From assembly GCF_013177655.1 (NCBI RefSeq), contig NZ_CP035946.1, forward strand, positions 248,001 through 312,000: a DNA stretch of 64,000 nucleotides. Reading direction: 5' to 3'. Under the pieces are notes generated by a model. That model saw only the letters and a program-made list of their open reading frames with translations, searched no databases and was not told the DNA's origin. How positions within the stretch are numbered: the first letter of the stretch is position 1; the number at the start of each line of letters is the position of its first letter. Both the position numbers and the translations under genes were made by a program. This document shows, in pieces, positions 1-39,905 of the stretch. Source of the DNA: Campylobacter canadensis. Lineage in GTDB: Bacteria > Campylobacterota > Campylobacteria > Campylobacterales > Campylobacteraceae.

Positions 1-1811
1 GTTTTGTTTAGTATTTTAATGCTTTCTTTGTATTCTTGTTTTTTAAATAAAATTTGTGCTTGTTTTATACTATAAAAAATATCATCTTCATTAATAAATT
101 CGCTAGCAGCTTTAAAGGCTAAATCGTCTTCATATTTTCTAATCAAACACACAACTAAGCTTTTTTTATTATTCAATTTAGCAAATTCATTAAAATCATA
201 GTCTTTTATTAAATCAAGGGCTATATCGCAATCTTTAGTTTTTAAACTAGAGTCAATTAGTATTTTTAAAGATTTATCAAATAAATCGCTTAAAACATCA
301 TTTTCAAGTTTTTTTATTTTTTTATCATAATTTAAAATTTGCGTGTATTCTTTTTCTTTAAAAAGTAATTTTACTTCTTCAAGCAAGGCACGGTCTGATA
401 TTTCATTATCATATTTTGCCATTAATAATTTATAATATTCGTGTAATTTAAAACTATCTGTTTCTTTGCTATGAAAATATAATAAATCAATAGCTTCATC
501 AATAACGCTTAAATATTCTCCGTTTGAATAGAGTTTTTTATATTCGTTTAGATATTTTTGCGCTTTATCGTATTCTTTGATTTTACTTAAAGAAAGAGCT
601 AAATTTTTTAAAGATTTTTCATAATATTGGTTTTGGCTATTTGAATTATCAAGCACGAATTCATAAATAACTGCTGCAATATCATAAAGTTTATTATTGT
701 AAAAATCATCAGCTAAGGCTATTGTTTTTTCTTTATCTTCAAGTAAAAAAGGTTTATTTGCATTAAAAACTTTTAATACAAATTCCTTTGCCTCAGCAAT
801 TTTTTTATCACTTATATTTATTCTTGCTAAAGCTATTGCGGCTTTACTTGCTAGAGTTGTGCTATTTGAAGTAAAAAGCGTGTTATTGTACAACAGACTA
901 GCTTGTTGTTTTTTATTATGCGCTAATAAATAATCAGCATAATCTAAATTAGCTAATTTTGTGTAATAAGAATTAGGATGTTCATTGTTTAAAATATCTA
1001 TAAAATATTGTGCGTTTGAGCTTTGCTCTATTTTTAAATAAGTTTTAATTAATAATTGCAAAGTTTCAGGGTAGTTTTCACTGCTTGCAAATTTTTTAGC
1101 ATAGTCTTTTACATCTTTTATGATTTCATCAGCATAGGTTGAATCTTGATGCAATAATTCTACCATAGCTCTTATTTTATATAAATAAAATTCACTTAAA
1201 AAAATACTTTTTCCATATTTATTAATTGCTTGCAAGCTTAAGTCTAATAGCTCTTTATATTTTTTGCTTTCATAAAATTTTTTTAAATCCAAATATGTGC
1301 TAATATCAGCATTATCACTAATATTTACAGGATTTTTATCTAAATCTAATCCTCCTACAAAGGGTAAGTTTAAATTAGGATATAAAACATCAAAATCTAA
1401 GCCATTTACAGCATTTTTTACCTTGTAATCTGGATAAAAAATAATACTCCAGTATTTTGACTTATCGCTTGTTTTATTTTTTATTTCTTTTTTTAAAAAA
1501 TCATTTTCATCTAAGGGTAAAATTAGGCTTTGAGTTTTTGGATATATAAAAATATCTAATTTTTCTTTTTTATTTTGAAAGACAATTTTAAACAATTTTA
1601 AATCTTGATTAGCTATTAATTTTGCTCTTCCTAAAACGCTGCATTTATAATAAATATTTGTATTATTATCTTGCAAAGTAAGGCAGTTTATATCTTGCTC
1701 GTCTTTTATGTGCAAAATATCAATTTGAGTATTATTCTCTTTTCCTGTGTTTAAAAAAACTTCAAAAGCAAAAGAATTTAAAACTAGAAAAAAGAATAAT
1801 ATTTTTTTCAT
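1..1811 (-). CDS. pflA: Paralysed-flagellum protein PflA, 5' part (C-terminus outside window)
   Basis: The reading frame is open from the ATG at 1811 down to base 1, so about 600 residues are visible and the C-terminus lies outside the window. The protein starts with a short signal peptide (MKKILFFLVLNSFAF). It continues as a mostly helical, repeat-like protein of the TPR type, with many Lys/Leu/Tyr-rich helix pairs from about residue 165 on. In Campylobacter, PflA is a periplasmic protein of about 790 residues needed for flagellar rotation, where it helps build the periplasmic scaffold of the motor, and its gene lies directly after nuoN. The start codon overlaps the nuoN stop (ATGA), so translation is probably coupled to the nuo operon. 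The call rests on position, size and architecture; the sequence identity was not measured. Confidence 0.85.
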   Translation of the reverse strand, partial: MKKILFFFLVLNSFAFEVFLNTGKENNTQIDILHIKDEQDINCLTLQDNNTNIYYKCSVLGRAKLIANQDLKLFKIVFQNKKEKLDIFIYPKTQSLILPLDENDFLKKEIKNKTSDKSKYWSIIFYPDYKVKNAVNGLDFDVLYPNLNLPFVGGLDLDKNPVNISDNADISTYLDLKKFYESKKYKELLDLSLQAINKYGKSIFLSEFYLYKIRAMVELLHQDSTYADEIIKDVKDYAKKFASSENYPETLQLLIKTYLKIEQSSNAQYFIDILNNEHPNSYYTKLANLDYADYLLAHNKKQQASLLYNNTLFTSNSTTLASKAAIALARINISDKKIAEAKEFVLKVFNANKPFLLEDKEKTIALADDFYNNKLYDIAAVIYEFVLDNSNSQNQYYEKSLKNLALSLSKIKEYDKAQKYLNEYKKLYSNGEYLSVIDEAIDLLYFHSKETDSFKLHEYYKLLMAKYDNEISDRALLEEVKLLFKEKEYTQILNYDKKIKKLENDVLSDLFDKSLKILIDSSLKTKDCDIALDLIKDYDFNEFAKLNNKKSLVVCLIRKYEDDLAFKAASEFINEDDIFYSIKQAQILFKKQEYKESIKILNK

Positions 1812-3115
1812 ATGTAATTTAATACCAAGCTAGAAATAAAGCTAACGATTATTGAAAACGCTATTAATGCTTTTTGAGTGTTTGTAAAATAAATAAAGTA
1901 TTTTGTACTTGAATCAGCAAAAATTGCTTTTATAAATTTTAAATAAGCAAAAAGCATAATTAAAGATGAAAGCGCCATACAAAGTGCTATTATGAAATTA
2001 AATTTCAAACTCGCATAGATTGCTAAAACTTTTGCAAAAAATACTCCAAATGGTGGAATTGCAGCTAAGTTTAATAATAAAACAACTAAGGCTATAGCAT
2101 AAAGTGGGTATGCTTTAAAAAAGCCATTTATATCTTCATATTTAGTACTTTTAAAGCTACTTAAAATTAAAAATACAGCCAAATTTACAAAGGCAAAAGA
2201 AATAAAATAAAATAAAGCATAATTTAAATACGCCCCTTGATTGCTTATAGTAGCTATTATCAAAGCAAAAGATGAGTGCGAAATAGAACTTAAAACAAGC
2301 ATTGATTTTGCATCTGTTTGCTTTAAAGACATAAAACTAGCAAAAAGCATTGAAAAAGCTGCAATTATGCAAAATGCAAAAGAATTTTGCGCATTTGCTA
2401 ATAAAATATTAGCCACAATAATAATCGCACTCTTAGGAGCTACGGAAATAAATCCAGCCAATAAGGTATCGCTTTTTAAATATACATCTTTAAGCCATAA
2501 GTGAAAAGGTGCAACAGAAAGTTTAAATAAAATAGTAGCTCCTATCATAGCAAAGGCAATAATTTGCACAGGGCTTGAGAGTTCAATATATTCTATGTTT
2601 AAATCAGCACTTGAGTAATAATACATAGCACTTCCAAAAGCAAAAAATGCCGATGAAATCATACCGTAATTAAAATATTTTAAACTTGCTTTAATTGCAC
2701 TCTTTTTAAAAGCTATTAAAGAATAAAGAGCCAAAGAAGAGCCTTCTAAGCATACAAAAATCATAATTAAATTCTTTGTGCTTACTAAGAAAGAAAAGCA
2801 AGTTAGCATAAATAATAATAAAGCATAAAATTCACTTTTGTATTCGTTTTTAATACTTAAAATATAATAAATATTTATACTAGCAATAAGAATTATTGCG
2901 TATTGTGATATTTTTGTAAAGCTAAGTAAGTTAAAAAAACTAGTGTTATATTCTTGATTAAATATAAAAATTATATTTAAAACTATTGATAAAATACTTA
3001 CCGATTTTAAAGCACTTTGTGTAAAAAACTTTGAAAAAAGCAATAAAACACAAGCTGCAAAAGTAGGTAATAAATAAGGTAAAAGTAAGCTAAAATTTAA
3101 TTCACTACTTATCAT
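1808..3115 (-). CDS. nuoN: NADH-quinone oxidoreductase-type complex I subunit N
   Basis: Antiporter-like membrane subunit of complex I that takes part in proton pumping in the inner membrane. The 435 residues form about 12-14 hydrophobic helices. The lysine-bearing segment FKLSVAPFHLWLKDVY near residue 195 is the family's conserved channel motif. It is shorter than the E. coli protein (485 residues), as is usual in Campylobacter. It is the last nuo gene: nuoM ends 9 bp upstream of its start and its stop overlaps the pflA start. Confidence 0.95.
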   Translation of the reverse strand: MISSELNFSLLLPYLLPTFAACVLLLFSKFFTQSALKSVSILSIVLNIIFIFNQEYNTSFFNLLSFTKISQYAIILIASINIYYILSIKNEYKSEFYALLLFMLTCFSFLVSTKNLIMIFVCLEGSSLALYSLIAFKKSAIKASLKYFNYGMISSAFFAFGSAMYYYSSADLNIEYIELSSPVQIIAFAMIGATILFKLSVAPFHLWLKDVYLKSDTLLAGFISVAPKSAIIIVANILLANAQNSFAFCIIAAFSMLFASFMSLKQTDAKSMLVLSSISHSSFALIIATISNQGAYLNYALFYFISFAFVNLAVFLILSSFKSTKYEDINGFFKAYPLYAIALVVLLLNLAAIPPFGVFFAKVLAIYASLKFNFIIALCMALSSLIMLFAYLKFIKAIFADSSTKYFIYFTNTQKALIAFSIIVSFISSLVLNYI

Positions 3116-3124
3116 CTTTTCTCC

Positions 3125-4483
3125 TTATATTAATTCTAAAATTAAATTAGGCACAACGCCTAGCAACACGCATAAAAAGCATAAAAAGCCTAGAATGATT
3201 TTTTGATATAAATTTGCTTTTAAAATCAATTTATTATCTTGTCCTAAAAAGCATTCTCTAAACATTTTTAACATATAAATTGCACCTAAAACAACAATAA
3301 AAGTAGCAATAATTCCATAAATTCTTGCATTTTCAAATAAGCCATAAAGAACCATAAATTCGCCAACAAAATTAATAGTAAGCGGTAAAGAAATTGAACT
3401 AAACAATAAAATTCCAAAAACTAAGCTAAGTTTAGGATTTGCAAAGGCTAATCCTTTTAGCTTATCTAATTCATATGTTTTTGTGTTTTTATAGATTATA
3501 TCAGCAAATAAAAACATAGCTCCACTTACAATAGCGTGTGCTATCATATAAAAAACTGCTCCTGTGATTGCTATTTGATTTAATGAAAAAACTCCAAGAC
3601 TTAAAATACCAATGTGAGATATTGAGCTTAAAGCACATAATTCTTTATAATTTTTTGCACTTGCTGCTAATAAAGCTGCATAAAGTGCAGAAATTAGACA
3701 TAAAGATAAAATAATATTATGATATTGAGCGATAACATCAGCAAATAAAGGCACTAAGAATTTTAAAAAGCCAAAGGGAGCCATTTTAAAAGCAACTAAC
3801 ATAACGCTAACAAAATTAGGTGCTTTATCATAGGTTTTAATCGCCCAACTATGCATTGGAAAAATAGGGGCTTTTATTATAAAAGCTAGAAAAAATCCTA
3901 AAAATAATAAAGTTTTTTCTTTCATAGTAAATGATGAGGTTGAAAAATAAACCATATTAAAATTCATAATACTTGAATTAAAAGAATTTAAAGCAAGATA
4001 AATAATGCTAAGCAACATTAAAATTGAACCTAAAAATGCAAAAATAAAAAATCTTTTTGCTAATACAGCTTGATTGTGCTTTAACATTAAATATAGTAAA
4101 GGCAGTAATGATACTTCCCAGAAAATATAAAACAATAAAGCATCATTTGTAAAAAATAAGCCATTCATACAAGAGCTTAAAATCATAGCGCAAATTAAAA
4201 AGTCTTTTTTGTAATCATCAAAAAAGCACATTGAAATAAAAAGCATAAAATTAGCAACTAAAGCTAACAATAAAGCAATATTATTTGCATCTAAGATAAT
4301 GCCAAAATTAATTGTATTTATTAAAGTATAGGCAAACCTTAAATCATTTGAAATAAAAGCATAAATGTTTAAAATAACAATTATTAATGAAAAAATTACA
4401 GCATTAATTTTTACACTTTTATCGTTTAAAAAATAAGCAAAAATAGCAAAAAGTAATGGTAAAAAAACTAAATAACTAAGCAT
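3125..4483 (-). CDS. nuoM: Complex I subunit M
   Basis: Second antiporter-like proton-pumping subunit of the complex I membrane arm. The 452 residues are almost entirely transmembrane. The conserved glutamate is visible in FYIFWEVSLLPL (about residue 123) and the channel lysine in FIIKAPIFPMHSW (about 205). The start overlaps the end of nuoL by 8 bp, which fits translational coupling within the operon. Confidence 0.95.
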   Translation of the reverse strand: MLSYLVFLPLLFAIFAYFLNDKSVKINAVIFSLIIVILNIYAFISNDLRFAYTLINTINFGIILDANNIALLLALVANFMLFISMCFFDDYKKDFLICAMILSSCMNGLFFTNDALLFYIFWEVSLLPLLYLMLKHNQAVLAKRFFIFAFLGSILMLLSIIYLALNSFNSSIMNFNMVYFSTSSFTMKEKTLLFLGFFLAFIIKAPIFPMHSWAIKTYDKAPNFVSVMLVAFKMAPFGFLKFLVPLFADVIAQYHNIILSLCLISALYAALLAASAKNYKELCALSSISHIGILSLGVFSLNQIAITGAVFYMIAHAIVSGAMFLFADIIYKNTKTYELDKLKGLAFANPKLSLVFGILLFSSISLPLTINFVGEFMVLYGLFENARIYGIIATFIVVLGAIYMLKMFRECFLGQDNKLILKANLYQKIILGFLCFLCVLLGVVPNLILELI

Positions 4484-6275
4484 ACATCACCACCAATATA
4501 GATAAAATTAAAAGCACAAAAAAGGCAAATATAAACATTATATGTTGAGTTAAATGCCCATCTTTGCAATCTTTTGAGGATAAAGATAAAATAAATTTTT
4601 TAGAATCTTCAAAAATCAAACTATAAAGATTTTCTTCAAATGAACGCATAAAATTAGAGAATTTTAAATAAGGATTTATAAAAATAAGCTCATAAAATGC
4701 AGCTATGTAATATTCATTTTCTAAAAGTTTTCTTATTTTACAAGAACATTGTTTTTCTTTTTTTCTAAATTTAAATATAGCAAGTACAATCGCACTAAGC
4801 GCAACAAGTAAGGATATTGCTATTAAAAGATAATCACTTTTTAACTCTTGAGCATTTGTAAATGCAAAGAATTTAGTATGGAAAAACCCAGCAATAATAG
4901 CCAAAATAACTAAAGGCAGCATAGCAAAAAGTGCTACAAAATTAGCTTCGTGAGCGTGATTTTTATCAGTACTTGGTGCAAAAAATACTAGCATTAATAA
5001 TCTAAAAGAATAAAAAGCAGTTAAAAAAGCAGTAAAGAGCAATACAGCATATAAAATATAATGCTCTGTATGCATTGAATAATCTAAAATTAAATCCTTG
5101 CTAAAAAAACCTGCAAAAGGATAAATACCGCTTAAGGCTAAAGAAGCAATTATCATAAAAATAGCAGTTATTTTCATCTTTTTAAATAAAGCACCCATTT
5201 TATGAATATTTAACTCATCATTCATAGCGTGCATTACATTACCAGCACCTAAAAATAATAAAGCCTTAAAAAAAGCATGTGTAATTAAATGAAATAAGGC
5301 TATTTTATAAGCTCCTAAACCACAAGCTACAAACATATAACCTAATTGAGATAGGGTAGAAAAGGCAATAATTCTTTTTAAATCACTTGCAACAACAGCC
5401 ATACTTGCAGCAAAAATAGCAACAAAGGCTCCTAAACAAGCTATAAAATAGCTAACTTGAGTTGTTAAAGTATAAAGCGGCTCTAATCTTATTAGTAAAT
5501 AAACTCCAGCAGTAACCATAGTTGCAGCATGAATTAGCGCTGAAACAGGTGTAGGGCCTGCCATAGCATTTGCTAACCAAGTATGAAAAGGAAATTGTGC
5601 TGATTTTCCCATTGCTCCAACAAATAATAAAGCTGCAATCAAAGTTAATGTATTATCTTCGTTTAATAATTCAATATAAGAAAGCATACTACTTAAGTGG
5701 AAAAATGAAAAAGTTTGAAAATTTAAATATATTAAAAATATTCCAAGCAGCATTGCAAAATCGCTTATTCTATTCATAATAAATGCTTCATTTGCTGCTT
5801 TTGAATATTTTGTATTTGTATGCCAAAAGCCAATTAATAGCCAAGAGCATAAGCCAACTCCCTCCCAGCCAACAAACATAAATAAGATATTATCACTTAG
5901 AACAAGAATTAGCATACAAAATACAAATAAACCTAAAAATGAAAAGAATTTATTAAATTTTTCATCATTTTGCATATAGTAAATACTATAAAAATGCACA
6001 CAAGTAGCAACTAAACTTACAACACAAATCATTGCTAAGCTTGTACTATCAACATAAATCCCAAAATTAGCATTTATAGTACTAATCCAAGGAGCAAGCA
6101 CAAAAGCACCTTCAATATTTGCATATAAATACAAAGAAATAAGAGCAAAAACAAAGGATAAAAACAATAAATACGAGCAAAAATATCCTAAAAGCTTATT
6201 TTTAGGAGAAAAACTATAAAAAGCAGCTACAAGTGCTGAAAATAAAGGTAAAAATAAGGTATAAATTAAACTCAT
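4476..6275 (-). CDS. nuoL: Complex I subunit L
   Basis: Distal antiporter-like subunit of complex I, with a long lateral helix at its C-terminus. The 599 residues match the family length (E. coli about 613). Motifs seen: VGWEGVGLCSWLLIGFW near residue 140 and FPFHTWLANAMAGPTPVSA near 230, both typical of NuoL/ND5. A hydrophilic stretch around residues 500-570 is followed by a final membrane helix. The start overlaps the nuoK stop by 4 bp (ATGA). Confidence 0.96.
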   Translation of the reverse strand: MSLIYTLFLPLFSALVAAFYSFSPKNKLLGYFCSYLLFLSFVFALISLYLYANIEGAFVLAPWISTINANFGIYVDSTSLAMICVVSLVATCVHFYSIYYMQNDEKFNKFFSFLGLFVFCMLILVLSDNILFMFVGWEGVGLCSWLLIGFWHTNTKYSKAANEAFIMNRISDFAMLLGIFLIYLNFQTFSFFHLSSMLSYIELLNEDNTLTLIAALLFVGAMGKSAQFPFHTWLANAMAGPTPVSALIHAATMVTAGVYLLIRLEPLYTLTTQVSYFIACLGAFVAIFAASMAVVASDLKRIIAFSTLSQLGYMFVACGLGAYKIALFHLITHAFFKALLFLGAGNVMHAMNDELNIHKMGALFKKMKITAIFMIIASLALSGIYPFAGFFSKDLILDYSMHTEHYILYAVLLFTAFLTAFYSFRLLMLVFFAPSTDKNHAHEANFVALFAMLPLVILAIIAGFFHTKFFAFTNAQELKSDYLLIAISLLVALSAIVLAIFKFRKKEKQCSCKIRKLLENEYYIAAFYELIFINPYLKFSNFMRSFEENLYSLIFEDSKKFILSLSSKDCKDGHLTQHIMFIFAFFVLLILSILVVMYA

Positions 6276-6559
6276 TTGCTTTCTCCTAAATCAAAATCCA
6301 AGCTCTTATCTTGTCTAAATTTAATAACACAAAGACTAAGTCCAACAACGATTTCACAAGCAGCAATAGCCATTATAAAAATTGCAAATATTTGCCCATT
6401 TAAGTCATTGTGAATTTTAGAAATACTTACAAAGGCTAAATTAGCAGCATTTAGCATAATTTCAGTGCTAATAAAAAACATTATTAAATTCTGTCTTTTT
6501 AAAATCCCAATAATGCCTATTACAAAAAGTATAAATGATAAAATAAGGTAATTATTCAT
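6272..6559 (-). CDS. nuoK: Complex I subunit K
   Basis: Small three-helix membrane subunit of complex I. The two buried glutamates needed for proton transfer in this family are present, in FISTEIMLNAANLAF (about residue 33) and in ACEIVVGLSL (about residue 69). The 95-residue length is close to the usual 100. It overlaps nuoJ and nuoL by 4 bp each. Confidence 0.95.
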   Translation of the reverse strand: MNNYLILSFILFVIGIIGILKRQNLIMFFISTEIMLNAANLAFVSISKIHNDLNGQIFAIFIMAIAACEIVVGLSLCVIKFRQDKSLDFDLGESK

Positions 6560-7065
6560 TGTTCTTCCTTTATTTTTTTAGCAACTAAGGCAATAGCACA
6601 TACTAAAACAATAAGCATAACTAAGGCTATTAATTCAAAGGCTAATAAATATTTTGTAAATAATACAACGCCTATATTTTGAGTATTATTAAAATCGTTA
6701 TCTATAGGCACGCTAGCGGTTTTATTGCTTATTTTTGGCATACAAAGCATAAAAATTAGCATAAGAATACTTAAAATACTAAGCGTAAAAAAACTTTTTT
6801 TATGTTTTAATTTTTCATTTAATTCTTTATTTAAATCAAAAAACATCATTGCAAAACTATAAAGCCCTAAAACAGCTCCGCTATAAACTATAATTTGTGC
6901 TGCACCTATAAATTCAGCATCAAGTAAAAAATAATGCGCACTTAAAAGCACCATACCGCAAGCAAGAGAGCTTATAGAATATAAAACATTTTTTGAGCTA
7001 ATTGCAATTATAAAAAATGCAATTACAAGTACTGCAAAAATATAAAAGCCAATAAGTTCAAACAT
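6556..7065 (-). CDS. nuoJ: Complex I subunit J
   Basis: Membrane subunit of complex I with five predicted helices in 169 residues. The conserved third-helix segment [21 protein letters not shown] (near residues 54-74) is recognisable. In the family this helix turns during coupling of quinone reduction to proton pumping. The gene overlaps nuoI by 8 bp. Confidence 0.94.
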
Positions 7066-7672
7066 TTTCTTCTCCTTTAGCTGCTAGTTCAATTTCATAA
7101 TAATTAGGCGTTTTTTTAACAAAAGCACTAGCATCTTTTCTTAAAGCTCCTGCACCTTCAAATTCTACTTGTTCTTTGAGTTTATCAATTGGAGTAAGAA
7201 TATCTTTTTTGTGTGCAAAATAAGCTCTTTGCTCACAAGCATTTTCATACTCAACTCCATGTACAATTGCAAGTTCAGGACAAACTTCAGCACAAAAACC
7301 ACAATAAATACATCTTCCAAGATTAATAGAATAATTACTAACTAATTTTCTTCCATCGCTTCCTAGCTCTGTTTGCATTCTAATGCAATTACTAATGCAA
7401 ATCTTTTCACATAATCCACAGCCAATACAACGCTCGCTTTCACTTTCTATAAATCTTTGTAATCTATGCACAGCACGATAGCGATTATCTAATTTTATTT
7501 TCTCAAAAGGATATTTAATAGTAGCGGTGTTAAACTTAAATGTTTCATTTATTACTGAAAATACCCCTACTAATAATTCGGTATTTAAACATCTTTTAAC
7601 GCTTTTAATAAATTTTTCATAAGGACTTAAGAGTAGCTTTCTATTTTCATCTACTTTTTTGTATCTTTGCAT
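7058..7672 (-). CDS. nuoI: Complex I iron-sulfur subunit I
   Basis: Peripheral-arm subunit that holds the two [4Fe-4S] clusters (N6a and N6b) passing electrons toward NuoB. Both ferredoxin motifs are intact: [15 protein letters not shown] (about residue 82) and [13 protein letters not shown] (about residue 121). The 204 residues include a longer N-terminus than in E. coli (180). The gene lies 9 bp after nuoH. Confidence 0.95.
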
Positions 7673-7681
7673 TTTTTCTCC

Positions 7682-8677
7682 TTATAAAGCACAAATAGCA
7701 GTTATAATTAAATTAATTGCTGCTAAAGGTAATAATATTAAATAACAAGTTCTCATAACTTGGTCAGCTCTTAAGTGCGGATAAGCGCCCCTTGCCCAAA
7801 AGTACCAAGAAAAAACAAAGCATATTTTTAAAATCATAGCAATAAAACCTGGTATGAAATAAAAATCATTAAAACCACCCAAGAAAATTAAGCTAATTAA
7901 AATTGAGCCTAAAATCATACTTGCATATTCACCGATAAAAAACATACCCCAGCGAAGTCCGCTATATTCAGTACCATAACCAGCAACTAATTCAGCATCA
8001 TTTTCACTTAAACAAAGTGGAGTTCTATTTGTTTCAATAAAGATTGCTATTGTAAATAATACAAAGGCTATTGGCTGCTTAAATATTAGCCAAGAAAAAA
8101 TTCCACCTTCTTGATAATTATTTATGTCAATAAAACTCATAGAACCAGTTAGTAAAACAATTGCTAATAAGCAAAGTCCGCTAACGCCTTCATAAGAAAT
8201 TATAGTTACTAAAGCTCTTGCTCCACCTATTAATGCCCATTTATTATTACTTGCCATACCACCTAAAAAGATTGCGTAAAAACACAAAGATGAACAACCA
8301 GCAACATAAAGCACAGCAATGTTAATATCAGCTACAATAGGCTTAATTGTATGACCAAAAAGGCTAAATTCAGGAAAAATAGGAACAGCAGCAAAGGCTA
8401 AAAAAGCACAAATAGCAGATATTAAAGGTGCAATTTTAAACACAATACTATTGCTCATATAAGGAATAATATCTTCTTTTGTAAAAAGTTTTATCATATC
8501 AGGAACTATTTGTAAAACACCAGCAGGTCCTAGCATATCAGGTCCTAAACGGCGATGAACATAACCTAAAACCTTTCTTTCTAAATAAGTAGCAAAACCA
8601 GCTAAGGCTGCAAAAATTGCTATTATTAAAAGACATTTTATTAAGGTAATGATTATAAAAAACAAAGTTTGGCTCAT
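7682..8677 (-). CDS. nuoH: Complex I subunit H
   Basis: Membrane subunit at the junction with the quinone site, about 331 residues and eight helices. Family motifs include YLERKVLGYVHRRLGPD (about residues 33-49) and SENDAELVAGYGTEYSG (about 225-241). I chose the ATG at 8677 rather than the upstream in-frame start at 8704. It is preceded by AAGGAG at normal spacing and overlaps the nuoG stop as ATGA, and the protein then begins MSQTLFF, like other Campylobacter NuoH. The longer form would add nine residues rich in Cys and Lys inside nuoG. Confidence 0.95.
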   Translation of the reverse strand: MSQTLFFIIITLIKCLLIIAIFAALAGFATYLERKVLGYVHRRLGPDMLGPAGVLQIVPDMIKLFTKEDIIPYMSNSIVFKIAPLISAICAFLAFAAVPIFPEFSLFGHTIKPIVADINIAVLYVAGCSSLCFYAIFLGGMASNNKWALIGGARALVTIISYEGVSGLCLLAIVLLTGSMSFIDINNYQEGGIFSWLIFKQPIAFVLFTIAIFIETNRTPLCLSENDAELVAGYGTEYSGLRWGMFFIGEYASMILGSILISLIFLGGFNDFYFIPGFIAMILKICFVFSWYFWARGAYPHLRADQVMRTCYLILLPLAAINLIITAICAL

Positions 8678-33957: not shown

Positions 33958-33967
33958 CAAGGTTTTT
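33941..33967 (+). terminator. Terminator of the dms operon
   Basis: AACCTTGCT (33941-33949) and AGCAAGGTT (33956-33964) form a 9-bp stem with a six-base loop, followed by TTT. It overlaps the end of the chaperone gene and abuts the stop of the convergent gene. Confidence 0.8.
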
Positions 33968-35018
33968 AAGCATCTTGTAAAAAAGAATTATTTAAAAATA
34001 TTTTTAAAAGCATAAAAAATTGAATAATAAATGATAAAAAAAGGCAAATTATAGCAAAGTCATTAATATTTAAATATCGTAATAGCAAAGTTAAAAATAA
34101 TAATATAAAGGATAAATATGTCCTTTTAAAAAATCTTAAAACTAAGCCATTATGCCTTAAACCTGCTATATTAAAAACCAGTAAAATATTTATGCAAATT
34201 GAACTAAGAAAAATAAGGTGCAAACTAGCACTAGTAGTATTTAATCCATAAATTAAGTAAGCAAGTCCTAAAATAAATATGCTTATGTATAAAAATAATA
34301 CATAATGAGTTTTTAAAAGCTCTTTATGATGAAAATCCTTAAGCCTTGCAAAAATCATAAATGCACTTGCAATATATAAAAATTTTAAATCTATATTGCT
34401 AAAAATAACACTAAAAATACTAAGTAAAATCAAAGTAAATACGCTAAGATTTTTATAATAAACATTGGGTATAAAATGATAATCTTTATAATTTTTTTCA
34501 TCTAAAGCACTTCTTGAGACTGCTATAGAAATTTTAAAATTTATAAGCATAATAGCAGCTGAATTAAGATGAATTAGTGCTTTTAAAAAATCAGTATTTA
34601 ATGTAAAAAAATAAGCGAATTTTAAAAAGCAAAATCCAAATAAAATTAATATTAAGCTATTAAAATTTTTAGTCTTAAAACACATAAAAGAACAAATAAA
34701 ACTAAGGCTAAGCCAAAAAATACACATAAAAAACATCGCAAAAAAAGTATTTATAAAATAAGTTAAAGCTGATGTTAAAAATAAAAAAAGTAAAAATATA
34801 TTTATATTTTTAAGAGTTTTATTAAAACCTAGCCAAGCTGGTAAGGCAGTTAAAATAAAGCCTGTGTATGCAGCACTTAAAGCAATATCAAAAAATAAAA
34901 AAATATGATTATTATAAAAATCATCACTAAAAAAATATACAAAAATACCCAAACTAAAAGAAATGCTACATAATAAAAAAAATGATTTCATAGGGATAAA
35001 AAATATTTCTTTATTCAT
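33966..35018 (-). CDS. NnrS-family membrane protein
   Basis: A 350-residue integral membrane protein with about 12 helices. AAYTGFILTALPAWLGF (about residue 49) matches the AFxGFxLTAxPxWTG block of NnrS, and INILLVFNIAGLRHNGL (about 290) matches the C-terminal RVALGHTGR block, though less closely. NnrS is a haem- and copper-containing inner-membrane protein linked to tolerance of nitric oxide. I take the ATG at 35018; the TTG at 35030 also overlaps the ABC gene. Last gene of the operon started by the TonB-type receptor. Confidence 0.75.
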   Translation of the reverse strand: MNKEIFFIPMKSFFLLCSISFSLGIFVYFFSDDFYNNHIFLFFDIALSAAYTGFILTALPAWLGFNKTLKNINIFLLFLFLTSALTYFINTFFAMFFMCIFWLSLSFICSFMCFKTKNFNSLILILFGFCFLKFAYFFTLNTDFLKALIHLNSAAIMLINFKISIAVSRSALDEKNYKDYHFIPNVYYKNLSVFTLILLSIFSVIFSNIDLKFLYIASAFMIFARLKDFHHKELLKTHYVLFLYISIFILGLAYLIYGLNTTSASLHLIFLSSICINILLVFNIAGLRHNGLVLRFFKRTYLSFILLFLTLLLRYLNINDFAIICLFLSFIIQFFMLLKIFLNNSFLQDA

Positions 35019-35706
35019 AATAAAGCTCAAAATTATTTAAGTATTGTTTATAAAAATCATCATTTCTTTTGCTTTGTGCGGTATCTAATTTGATGATTTT
35101 TTTCACGTAAGAGTTTTTACCTAAAAAATATATATAATCAGCTATTTTTAAGGCTTCTAATCTATCGTGAGTTACCATAATTGCACTTTTATTGTTATTT
35201 TTTATAAAAGTGATTAAAAAATTAATCAAAAAGTCTTTTAATTCATAATTAATTCCATTAAAAGGCTCATCTAATAATAACAATGTAGGATTGGCTAATA
35301 TTGCTCTTGCAAAATTAATTCTAGTTTTCATTCCACCGCTAAGCTCATTTGGATATTTTAAAGCGTCGTTTTTGTTTAAATTCAGCAATGAAAGTATTTT
35401 ATATATTTCTTCATCATTAAGTTTATTATTTGCTAATTTTATATTTTTAAAAGCATTATAAAAAGGTATTAAATTTGCTTCTTGAAAGACATAAGAAATA
35501 TTTATTTTTTGCATAAAAAATTTATCAAAATAAGCCTTGTTAATTCCTGCAATGGTGTTTAAAATACTAGTTTTTCCACAACCACTTGCCCCAAGTAAAA
35601 CAATAATTTCTCCTAAATGCACTTTTAAAGAAAAATTATTTACAATATTTATATTTGCAATATCGTAATTTAGCTTATGAATATCTAAGATGAGGGGTTT
35701 AAACAT
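35011..35706 (-). CDS. ABC importer ATP-binding protein
   Basis: A 231-residue ATPase of the nitrate/sulfonate/taurine type. Walker A is LLGASGCGKTS (about residue 36), the Q-loop YVFQEANLIP, signature LSGGMKTRINFARA (about 122), Walker B LLLLDEPF (about 143) and the switch VTHDRLEA (about 178). It partners with the permease upstream (overlap 8 bp) and the binding protein before it. Confidence 0.9.
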   Translation of the reverse strand: MFKPLILDIHKLNYDIANINIVNNFSLKVHLGEIIVLLGASGCGKTSILNTIAGINKAYFDKFFMQKINISYVFQEANLIPFYNAFKNIKLANNKLNDEEIYKILSLLNLNKNDALKYPNELSGGMKTRINFARAILANPTLLLLDEPFNGINYELKDFLINFLITFIKNNNKSAIMVTHDRLEALKIADYIYFLGKNSYVKKIIKLDTAQSKRNDDFYKQYLNNFELYYE

Positions 35707-36502
35707 TTGTTTTATCCTTGTAAATTATTAGCTCTAAATTTTTAATTATTAAAAACTCAAAAGCTGCTAAAAAAACTACACATATTAATAAATAAGCCAA
35801 AACCACATCATTTTCCAAAAAGCTTCTTGCATCGGCTATTTTTGAACCTATGCCGTTATTTGCACCTAATAATTCAGCCATTATTGTAAGCTTGAAAGCA
35901 TTGCTAATTGAAATTAAACTTGCTGGTAAAAGATGAGCTAGGCTAAAGGGTAAATATAAATTTATAAAAAGTGATTTTTTAGAGAATTTATATATTTTTG
36001 CCATATCTTTAAGTCCTTTAGGAATATCATTTAAAGCGTTTAGCGTGCAAGAAAATGTATAAGCATAAGTGCAAATAATCACAACAAAAATTACACTAAA
36101 ATCACTAAAGCCAAACCAAAATAAGGCTAAAACCACCCAAGCAATAGGCGCAATGCTAAGATTTATTGAAATTATTGGCTTTATAAATAATAAAAAAGTT
36201 TTAAATTTATATGAAATTATACCTAAAACAATACCTAAACAAAGACTTATAAAAGAGCCAATAAAAGCTCTTTTTAAGCTAATTATTAAATCAAATTCAT
36301 CATAGTTTTTAATAATTTCTAAAGCTTTTAATATTACATTTTGTGGATTTGCTAAAATAAAATCGCTTGTGTAATAATTAGCAATTTGCCAAAGGCTTAA
36401 AAAAATAAAAAAAACGCCAATGCTAATAAAACTAGAAAAGCAATAATCAAGCATTCTAGTAAAATATGAGCGATTAATGCTTTTATTATTAGTAATTAAC
36501 AT
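35699..36502 (-). CDS. ABC importer permease protein
   Basis: A 267-residue inner-membrane permease of the SsuC/TauC type, with six helices. The coupling loop is at about residues 165-200 (ALNDIPKGLKDMAKIYKFS and on to LPFSLAHLLPA), the EAA-like motif facing the ATPase. The gene starts 4 bp after the binding-protein gene. Confidence 0.88.
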   Translation of the reverse strand: MLITNNKSINRSYFTRMLDYCFSSFISIGVFFIFLSLWQIANYYTSDFILANPQNVILKALEIIKNYDEFDLIISLKRAFIGSFISLCLGIVLGIISYKFKTFLLFIKPIISINLSIAPIAWVVLALFWFGFSDFSVIFVVIICTYAYTFSCTLNALNDIPKGLKDMAKIYKFSKKSLFINLYLPFSLAHLLPASLISISNAFKLTIMAELLGANNGIGSKIADARSFLENDVVLAYLLICVVFLAAFEFLIIKNLELIIYKDKTNV

Positions 36503-37459: not shown

Positions 37460-39274
37460 TTAAAAACTAGCGTTAAATTTTGCATAAATTGCTCTTGCTG
37501 GTGCATTTATATTTAAATATTTAAAAGATTCCACATGATATGGACTTATAAATTCTTGATATTTTTTATTAAGTAGGTTGTTAATTGCAAAAGTTATGCT
37601 AAAAGTATCTTTAAATTTGATATTAGAATACAAATCAAGCACCCCAAATCCACCTAGCTTTTTATCAATTCCAAGTCCATTACTTTTTTCAAAATCTCCT
37701 CTATTTTGAGAAAACGCATATCTATAAGCAGCACCTATTGTATAAAGCCCATTGCTAAAATAGTTTTTATAATCAATTTTTGCATTTATTTCAAATGGTC
37801 TTATTTGATATAAAGCTCTTTTATCGCTTGTGTTTTGTCCGTAATTATAAGTTAATGCGATTTTAGTACCAAAATGATTTAAAAAATTATAATTTAAGCT
37901 AAGCTTAGAGCTAAATAAATAAGCATTTACATTTCTTGAAATAACCGCTCCATCGCCTTTATTAGAATTATTAGCTCTTGCTCTATCAAAGATTATTAAA
38001 TCTTGCACCTTATCAAAACTAATTTTAGCATTTATTAAATAGCCATTTTCAAAAAGTGAATTTAAATAATCTTTATAAGCTTCATTTTTAAAGGCAAAAT
38101 CTAATTTAATCAAATTATGAATTTCTGGCTTTATAAAAGGATTAGATACATTTATATTAGTTGAAATTGGAGCAAAAATACTTGTAAATCTTTCTAAATT
38201 ATTAGGCATTCTTGAAAGTCTTTTATAATCAATTAAGGCTTTGTTTAGTCCATCATCATATTCATATCCTATAGCGTAATTTAAAGCATTTTGAGTAATT
38301 TTACCATTAAAAGTTTTTGCATAATACATCTGCCATAAATTATTTGAATTAGGAAAAAATGCTGACTTAGCACTAGGATTACTTAATTTAATATCTTGTT
38401 TTGTGGTCTTTGCAATATTTTTTGTGTAATTTAATGCAAAATTAATTTTACTAAAATCGCTAATTTTATAATAATTATTTATATAAAAAACATATTCATT
38501 TGTCTTTACATCTGGATATTTGTAAGCATTTAAAATATCATTGGCAAATCTTTTTGCAATATGAGTATCGTAAAAATAAGATAATCCTAATTGGGTATGA
38601 AAATTATTAAAATCTTTATCATAACTAATATCAGTATTAAAGCTATTTTTATCAACTTGCATTCTCATTTTTTGCATTGCAGTTCTTAATTTATAATTAT
38701 TAGCCTTTCTTAAAAAATCAATATATTTAAAACTAATATTTAAGGTGTTGCTTAAATCGCTTTGTCCTAATCTATGGCTTAGCATATATATTGTTCTTGT
38801 AGTTTTTACAGGGTCCATTTGATAGTGTGCTTGTTTATCATCTTTTATATCATCTTGTAAAAATACAAATTTTGTATCATTTAATTCATTTGGTGTAAAG
38901 CCTAAAATTGCAGCTAAATTAAATCTTTTATAAGCAAAATCAATTTTTTTACCACCTGCATCTTTGTATGAATTTGCTTTAGTGTTTGCTATATTAAATA
39001 TAGAATAATATTTTGCTTCTTTTGTTTTAAACAAAAATGAATTGTAAAAACTATTGTGAAATAAGGCTGTAGTAAAATTATAAGTTTTATTAAGCTCATC
39101 ATCTAAATAATTTACCCTATTCGTTAAATCATATTGATTTTCTAAATAATATTTATCAAGTGGTTTAATTAGTGGCGGCGGGGAAAATGTTTTTAAGGGA
39201 TTTATTGTTTCATTTAAAATAACATCTGCCTTTAAACTAGCTATAAATAAGCACAATAATGATAATTTTTTCAT
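37460..39274 (-). CDS. TonB-dependent receptor-like outer-membrane barrel lacking a plug domain
   Basis: A 604-residue outer-membrane protein with a signal peptide (MKKLSLLCLFIASLKA). From about residue 50 to the end it reads as a porin-like barrel of alternating aromatic strands, and its end, ITFAINNLLNKKYQEF...AIYAKFNASF, is a classic TonB-receptor C-terminus. The region around ANSYKDAGGKKIDFAYKRFN (about 104-124) recalls barrels of the copper receptor OprC/NosA group. The 130-150-residue plug that normally precedes the barrel is missing; only about 40 residues of a proline-rich linker follow the signal. No plug coding was found in the 214 bp upstream. First gene of a five-gene operon. Confidence 0.75.
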   Translation of the reverse strand: MKKLSLLCLFIASLKADVILNETINPLKTFSPPPLIKPLDKYYLENQYDLTNRVNYLDDELNKTYNFTTALFHNSFYNSFLFKTKEAKYYSIFNIANTKANSYKDAGGKKIDFAYKRFNLAAILGFTPNELNDTKFVFLQDDIKDDKQAHYQMDPVKTTRTIYMLSHRLGQSDLSNTLNISFKYIDFLRKANNYKLRTAMQKMRMQVDKNSFNTDISYDKDFNNFHTQLGLSYFYDTHIAKRFANDILNAYKYPDVKTNEYVFYINNYYKISDFSKINFALNYTKNIAKTTKQDIKLSNPSAKSAFFPNSNNLWQMYYAKTFNGKITQNALNYAIGYEYDDGLNKALIDYKRLSRMPNNLERFTSIFAPISTNINVSNPFIKPEIHNLIKLDFAFKNEAYKDYLNSLFENGYLINAKISFDKVQDLIIFDRARANNSNKGDGAVISRNVNAYLFSSKLSLNYNFLNHFGTKIALTYNYGQNTSDKRALYQIRPFEINAKIDYKNYFSNGLYTIGAAYRYAFSQNRGDFEKSNGLGIDKKLGGFGVLDLYSNIKFKDTFSITFAINNLLNKKYQEFISPYHVESFKYLNINAPARAIYAKFNASF

Positions 39275-39321: not shown

Positions 39322-39327
39322 AATTAA

Positions 39328-39388
39328 TGATTCAAATCAATAAAATTTAAATACTTTCTAAAAATATAAAACTTTGATTATTGAATCA
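39328..39388. repeat. Twin TGATT/AATCA dyads in the divergent promoter region
   Basis: TGATT-N2-AATCA (39328-39339) and TGATT-N4-AATCA (39375-39388) lie about five helical turns apart between the receptor operon and cgb. They may be operator sites of a dimeric regulator, possibly FNR/CRP-like given the half-site, but spacing differs between the two. Confidence 0.4.
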
Positions 39389-39488: not shown

Positions 39489-39905
39489 ATGACAAAAGAA
39501 CAAATTCAAATCATTAAAGATTGTGTACCTATTTTGCAAAAAAATGGAGTAGATTTAAGCAATGAGTTTTATAAAATAATGTTTAATGATTATCCTGAGG
39601 TAAAGCCTATGTTTAATATGGAAAAACAAATTTCAGGAGAGCAACCAAAAGCTTTAGCGATGGCGATTTTAATGGCGGCTAAAAATATAGAAAATTTAGA
39701 AAATATGAGAAGCTTTGTTGATAAAGTTGCCATAACTCATGTTAATTTAGGGGTTAAAGAAGAGCATTATCCTATAGTTGGAGCTTGCCTTTTAAAGGCT
39801 ATTAAAAATCTTTTAAATCCTGACGAAGACACTCTTAAAGCTTGGGAAGTTGCTTATAGCAAAATTGCTGAATTTTATATCAATATAGAAAAAAAACTTT
39901 ATTAA
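39489..39905 (+). CDS. cgb: Single-domain haemoglobin Cgb
   Basis: A 138-residue globin without a reductase domain, of the Vitreoscilla-haemoglobin type. The Campylobacter homologue turns nitric oxide into nitrate. Positions seen: the E-helix region EQPKALAMAILMAAKN (about residues 54-69) and the proximal His in KVAITHVNLGVKEEHYPIVG (about residues 79-98). AAAGGAG precedes the ATG. The NssR-like site just upstream supports induction by nitrosative stress. Confidence 0.92.
   Translation: MTKEQIQIIKDCVPILQKNGVDLSNEFYKIMFNDYPEVKPMFNMEKQISGEQPKALAMAILMAAKNIENLENMRSFVDKVAITHVNLGVKEEHYPIVGACLLKAIKNLLNPDEDTLKAWEVAYSKIAEFYINIEKKLY

Follow-up and report, generated by a model that had tools for sequence, protein, structure and literature searches.

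The first gene of an importer-NnrS operon in the window, a 64,000 nt stretch of Campylobacter canadensis DNA (NZ_CP035946.1, positions 248,001 to 312,000), encodes what is virtually certain to be a complete TonB-receptor barrel without a plug, one of a group of proteins that almost certainly form a single conserved clade. We judge it somewhat better than an even bet that the barrel is an OprC-derived, TonB-independent outer-membrane channel with a preferred substrate. The gate that defines TonB-dependent receptors is their plug. A natural clade without it, found in two phyla and in a fixed operon, would test which functions require plug and TonB and would show a route from active receptor to channel. 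The gene and its parts are as follows:

37460..39274, minus strand: gene for the plugless outer-membrane barrel of OprC type (604 aa), at the head of the cluster
39227..39274, minus strand: signal peptide, residues 1-16, recognized by eye (MKK, a hydrophobic stretch and LKA)
39086..39226, minus strand: residues 17-63, a conserved N-terminal tail that stands where the plug would be and bears the family motif PLKxFxPPxxITPNxAQ...ENQFDxTxR
37463..39085, minus strand: 22-strand barrel, residues 64-604, with a C-terminal Phe (AlphaFold, Foldseek)
38702..38710, minus strand: R189-x-A191, at the position of the OprC HxM ligands His323/Met325 (alignment columns)

The open reading frame (37460-39274, minus strand) runs uninterrupted for 604 residues, and its hydrophobic N-terminus is also present in orthologs. 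A Pfam search detected the PF00593 barrel at residues 105-567 (E 1.2e-7) and did not find the PF07715 plug. The NCBIfam model TIGR01778 (TonB-dependent copper receptor) matched with an E value of 9.4e-45 over profile positions 139-637 only, the 153.5 bits falling short of the equivalog cut-off of 472 bits; plugged OprC-type relatives run likewise were matched from position 3. OprC was the sole strong match in a phmmer search of the PDB (query residues 93-601 against OprC 227-720), with the matches to OprC entries beginning at OprC residue 224-230. An AlphaFold model built on an 18-sequence alignment (pLDDT 74.7, pTM 0.72) has 22 strands spanning residues 64-603, and all OprC chains rank first when this model is searched with Foldseek. 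Collectively, these results indicate that the barrel is complete and that the plug is absent rather than hidden, and they make the barrel structure and the family assignment firm. They bear out the first-pass annotation, which had described a TonB-receptor barrel lacking its plug and had noted, by eye, a resemblance to OprC/NosA. It had also named two findings that would overturn its reading: neither Pfam, profile nor structure places a plug domain in residues 17-150, where the barrel begins at about residue 64, and an upstream reading error is excluded by about 50 Campylobacteraceae orthologs of the same length, with the same signal peptide and tail followed by the barrel.

An initial scan of genome contigs with a single barrel protein as the query gave no match. 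When 153 genomes from the window's family were searched, relatives were found in 56, about 46 of which carry the plugless form. Scans of named genomes also detected plugless barrels in Campylobacter concisus, C. majalis, C. troglodytis and Helicobacter sp. 11-8110, in Neisseria elongata, N. polysaccharea, N. bergeri and N. viridiae, and in Lonepinella koalarum and Neisseriaceae MAGs. In a tree computed from the barrel columns alone, the 25 plugless proteins lie on one side of a branch with SH-aLRT 100, apart from the 56 plugged OprC-type proteins. Campylobacterota and Neisseriaceae rows are intermixed within the plugless clade (for example, L038 of the window's family with L069 of a Neisseriaceae MAG), a pattern that points to probable movement of the gene between phyla. 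Certain Neisseria species carry a plugged OprC-type receptor together with the plugless protein. TdfF of pathogenic Neisseria, an 80 kDa receptor described in papers as restricted to pathogens, was considered as the same protein and rejected, as the plugless members found here are in commensals. Three other genomes of the window's genus (G128, G129 and G130) are without barrel and binding protein, so the cluster was either gained in the window's genome or lost in those. MAGs of another Campylobacteraceae genus (L056, L058, L059 and L060) encode plugged OprC-type receptors with the CxxxM-HxM site.

The residues that stand where a plug would be expected are themselves conserved. Tail residues 28-53 average 3.32 bits per column, compared to 2.97 for the barrel, while AlphaFold gives residues 1-57 a pLDDT <50 and no fold. 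Local profile alignment starts only at residue 86 and shows no tail-plug similarity, and the idea that the tail retains the final strand of the plug was rejected. Residues 17-63 are a conserved tail that is not recognizable as a shortened plug. One could still suppose that the barrel remains TonB-driven, with the tail serving as a minimal plug that contacts TonB through a sequence not recognised as such, given that the tail is conserved and N-terminal, as expected of a TonB box, and that the genome encodes other TonB-dependent receptors. We regard this as improbable: with a crude pattern, TonB-box-like sequences were found in 0 of 25 plugless tails compared to 31 of 56 plugged relatives, about 45 residues are too few for the usual plug fold, and neither the AlphaFold model nor the profile alignment reveals one. 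Measured against TonB-dependent receptors, the protein therefore shares the barrel homologous to PF00593 receptors and lacks both the plug and, by this crude pattern, the TonB box.

In OprC, copper is bound by two plug residues, Cys143 and Met147, and two barrel residues, His323 and Met325 (PMC8610252). Among the plugged proteins, the HxM columns hold H and M in 56/56 and CxxxM is present in 55/56. In the plugless proteins, the H column is R in 25/25 and the M column is mostly A, and cysteine is absent throughout the mature sequences. The window's barrel has neither part of the CxxxM-HxM signature and very probably lacks an OprC-type copper site. Since both halves of the site are absent, the copper specificity implied by the OprC/NosA name is not supported, nor does the barrel's sequence support the name "TonB-dependent copper receptor" taken from the closest model. 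Supply of copper to NnrS or N2O reductase by an OprC/NosA-like receptor might nonetheless be considered, with OprC the closest family, NnrS described as a cuproprotein (PMC6769254), FNR-type boxes upstream of the cluster, and NosA expressed anaerobically (PMC8610252). This is quite improbable, not only because all four copper ligands are missing or replaced but also because the binding protein encoded next to the barrel resembles organic-anion binders, not copper proteins. NosZ is absent from 11 of the 46 genomes with a plugless barrel, and its absence from the window's own genome led us to reject copper delivery to N2O reductase there.

As the first-pass annotation had proposed, the barrel gene heads an ABC/NnrS operon. 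The operon is conserved and, preceded by a candidate regulatory site, continues in the window with:

39327..39340, minus strand: FNR-type box TTGATTTGAATCAT with a single mismatch, 53-66 bases upstream of the start codon
36506..37450, minus strand: periplasmic binding protein with a Tat-type start (MKRREFL) and an NMT1/SsuA fold
35699..36502, minus strand: ABC permease, BPD_transp_1, NitT/TauT type (profile matches)
35011..35706, minus strand: ABC ATPase (profile matches)
33966..35030, minus strand: NnrS-family membrane protein with invariant His42, His234, His271 and His293

The order barrel, Tat binding protein, permease, ATPase and NnrS-like protein is kept in nearly all carriers and is common to Campylobacterota, Neisseriaceae and Pasteurellaceae. 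The NMT1/SsuA-like binding protein, BPD_transp_1 permease and ATPase together constitute a NitT/TauT-type importer, and the NnrS gene scores 87 bits against PF05940 (gathering score 28). The fold of the binding protein is nearest to 3hn0, an uncharacterised structure, and to SsuA/TauA/PqqT/Thi5-type proteins, whose ligands are small, mainly anionic organic molecules. The many conserved arginines of the barrel (lumen-facing and other positions taken together) and the type of binding protein suggest an anion preference, and we suppose that the substrate is small and not copper; that it is also anionic we would put at slightly less than an even chance.

FNR-type boxes matching TTGATN4ATCAA exactly were found in 7 of 31 upstream regions, compared to 0.045 expected from shuffled sequence, and Fur-box-like sequences matching at least 14 of 19 positions in 7 upstream regions of the group, compared to 0.5 expected, though these counts somewhat overstate the evidence because related sequences are not independent. 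The window's own FNR-type site is not significant alone, and the Fur-box scan of its promoter was at shuffle level with no significant site. A single-domain globin gene (39489-39905, plus strand), whose product most resembles the globin portion of NO-inducible flavohemoproteins, is transcribed divergently from the barrel gene in the window; this neighbour is not conserved in relatives.

These features can be assembled into a scheme in which loss of the plug would have removed the TonB-coupled gate together with half of the copper site, and the other half would have been replaced, with the histidine becoming an invariant arginine. A small, probably anionic solute would then diffuse passively through the barrel and be captured by the Tat-exported binding protein, the permease and ATPase would pump it into the cytoplasm, and the NnrS-like protein may use or respond to the product. 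Expression would be under FNR-type control (low oxygen or nitrogen oxide) and possibly Fur control (iron). The tail of ~45 residues is probably located within the lumen or beneath it, where it could narrow the passage or serve as a strap on which the binding protein docks. Some considerations weigh against the channel. With 22 strands and no plug, the barrel should form a very wide pore (the FhuA barrel measures about 41 A from C-alpha to C-alpha), which should be costly if neither loops nor the tail constrict it; in the AlphaFold model, the tail that might do so is placed without confidence (pLDDT <50). Support for the FNR and Fur motifs comes from the group and does not extend to the window's own promoter.

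The first-pass annotation had offered a choice between an open pore and a plug supplied by another protein. All PF07715 matches in the window's genome fall within full-length receptor frames of 662-826 codons, and an OprC-plug profile run across eight genomes found receptor-linked plugs only. No extra conserved gene accompanies the cluster; the Neisseria gene upstream of it begins like DnaK. The part of the proposal that called for a separate plug gene thus found no match in these profile searches, though a trans-acting plug could exist if too divergent for the profiles used, and the open pore is the part that we carry forward as a likely state of the barrel. Alternatively, the binding protein and a tail anchor might constitute the plug in trans, the binding protein docking below the barrel, shutting it when empty and departing with ligand. 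Barrel and binding protein stay together more than any other pair of the cluster, a transposon copy retains both alongside a FecCD-type ABC transporter, and the highly conserved tail has no detectable counterpart in plugged relatives. A diffusible protein would be a poor permanent plug, however, and the binding protein remains intact in clusters with a broken or missing barrel and is used without a barrel in free-living relatives, making this alternative unlikely. We are similarly doubtful of a two-part importer in which a binding protein tethered by the tail replaces both plug and TonB and the barrel opens only onto the docked, empty binding protein, which, if true, would be a TonB receptor rebuilt as an energy-independent ligand-handover channel.

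The transposon is a Tn5053-like element (rve/Mu-type transposase, TniB and TniQ) seen at L042 (321-11379, G047:C8), L055 and L156. In it, a FecB/FecCD/ATPase importer and a methyltransferase lie behind the plugless barrel and binding protein, where the permease, ATPase and NnrS genes would usually be; at L156, this importer set comes with the binding protein and without the barrel.

Interruptions, at differing places, were found in 10 of 52 barrel copies within the family, compared to 1 of 56 binding-protein copies. In the pairs compared, the breaks are scattered indels and stops and do not lie at repeat tracts, and phase variation was therefore rejected as their origin. The barrel homolog of a Neisseria gonorrhoeae record (L179, NZ_CP119140.1 1331856-1349752) is likewise broken, lying in two reading frames. 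This is one of two chromosome-size N. gonorrhoeae records that are filed as plasmids in PLSDB. The interruptions in both groups could be taken to mean that the barrel is a decaying, functionless receptor remnant, but the majority of copies, drawn from two phyla, are intact and, at 35-47% identity, retain 60+ invariant positions together with the conserved tail; we consider decay highly improbable. The broken copies, together with several clusters from which the barrel is missing, indicate that it is dispensable or replaceable, a further point to be set against the channel.

A binding protein-permease-ATPase-NnrS operon is common among free-living Campylobacterales (loci L158-L177). Among 17 free-living binding-protein loci, seven have an ordinary TonB receptor nearby and most have no adjoining receptor. 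At L158, the receptor carries a PF07715 plug (E 1.6e-25), and it is heme/siderophore receptors, rather than OprC, that it most resembles. In a tree of the binding proteins, those of plugless operons form one clade, with four barrel-less clusters dispersed inside it. The variation in receptors, the losses and breaks of the barrel and the intact binding protein suggest that the importer-NnrS unit is the core and the outer-membrane part an exchangeable accessory. Since the free-living operon is usually without a receptor and sometimes has a plugged one, the substrate is probably small enough not to need a dedicated receptor, which fits a channel that improves substrate access yet can be lost. In the Campylobacterales, one conserved importer-NnrS operon is thus combined with three outer-membrane solutions: none, a plugged receptor or a plugless barrel.

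The window's operon overlaps with several known systems. It shares with OprC/NosA (TIGR01778; PDB 6fok, 6z8y) a 22-strand barrel, homology along the whole barrel and the top structural match, but lacks plug, TonB-box-like sequence and CxxxM-HxM, has a new conserved tail and lies in a different operon. The free-living receptor-SBP-ABC-NnrS operons (for example, L158, L159 and L160) have the same gene order and a homologous binding protein, permease, ATPase and NnrS, but the L158 receptor is heme/siderophore-like with a normal plug, whereas the window's barrel is plugless and OprC-type. NitT/TauT importers (SsuABC/TauABC/NMT1-like, including the PQQ-binding PqqT) are alike in binding-protein fold, permease and ATPase type and differ in that the window's operon has a Tat-type leader and includes barrel and NnrS. 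Engineered plugless FhuA and plug-free SusC (PMC10418385, PMC7782687) are also TonB-type barrels without a plug; these are deletions or detergent/proteolysis states, whereas the present family is plugless by nature. Our search of the open-access literature for naturally plugless TonB-type barrels found only these FhuA deletions and SusC states; the lack of natural cases in it is weak evidence. A second, divergent plugless barrel of 596 aa, with no ABC operon, is encoded at L052 (8858-10648) and L053 (8844-10634), after a DsbA-DsbB pair, before an arylsulfate sulfotransferase gene and upstream of nosZ.
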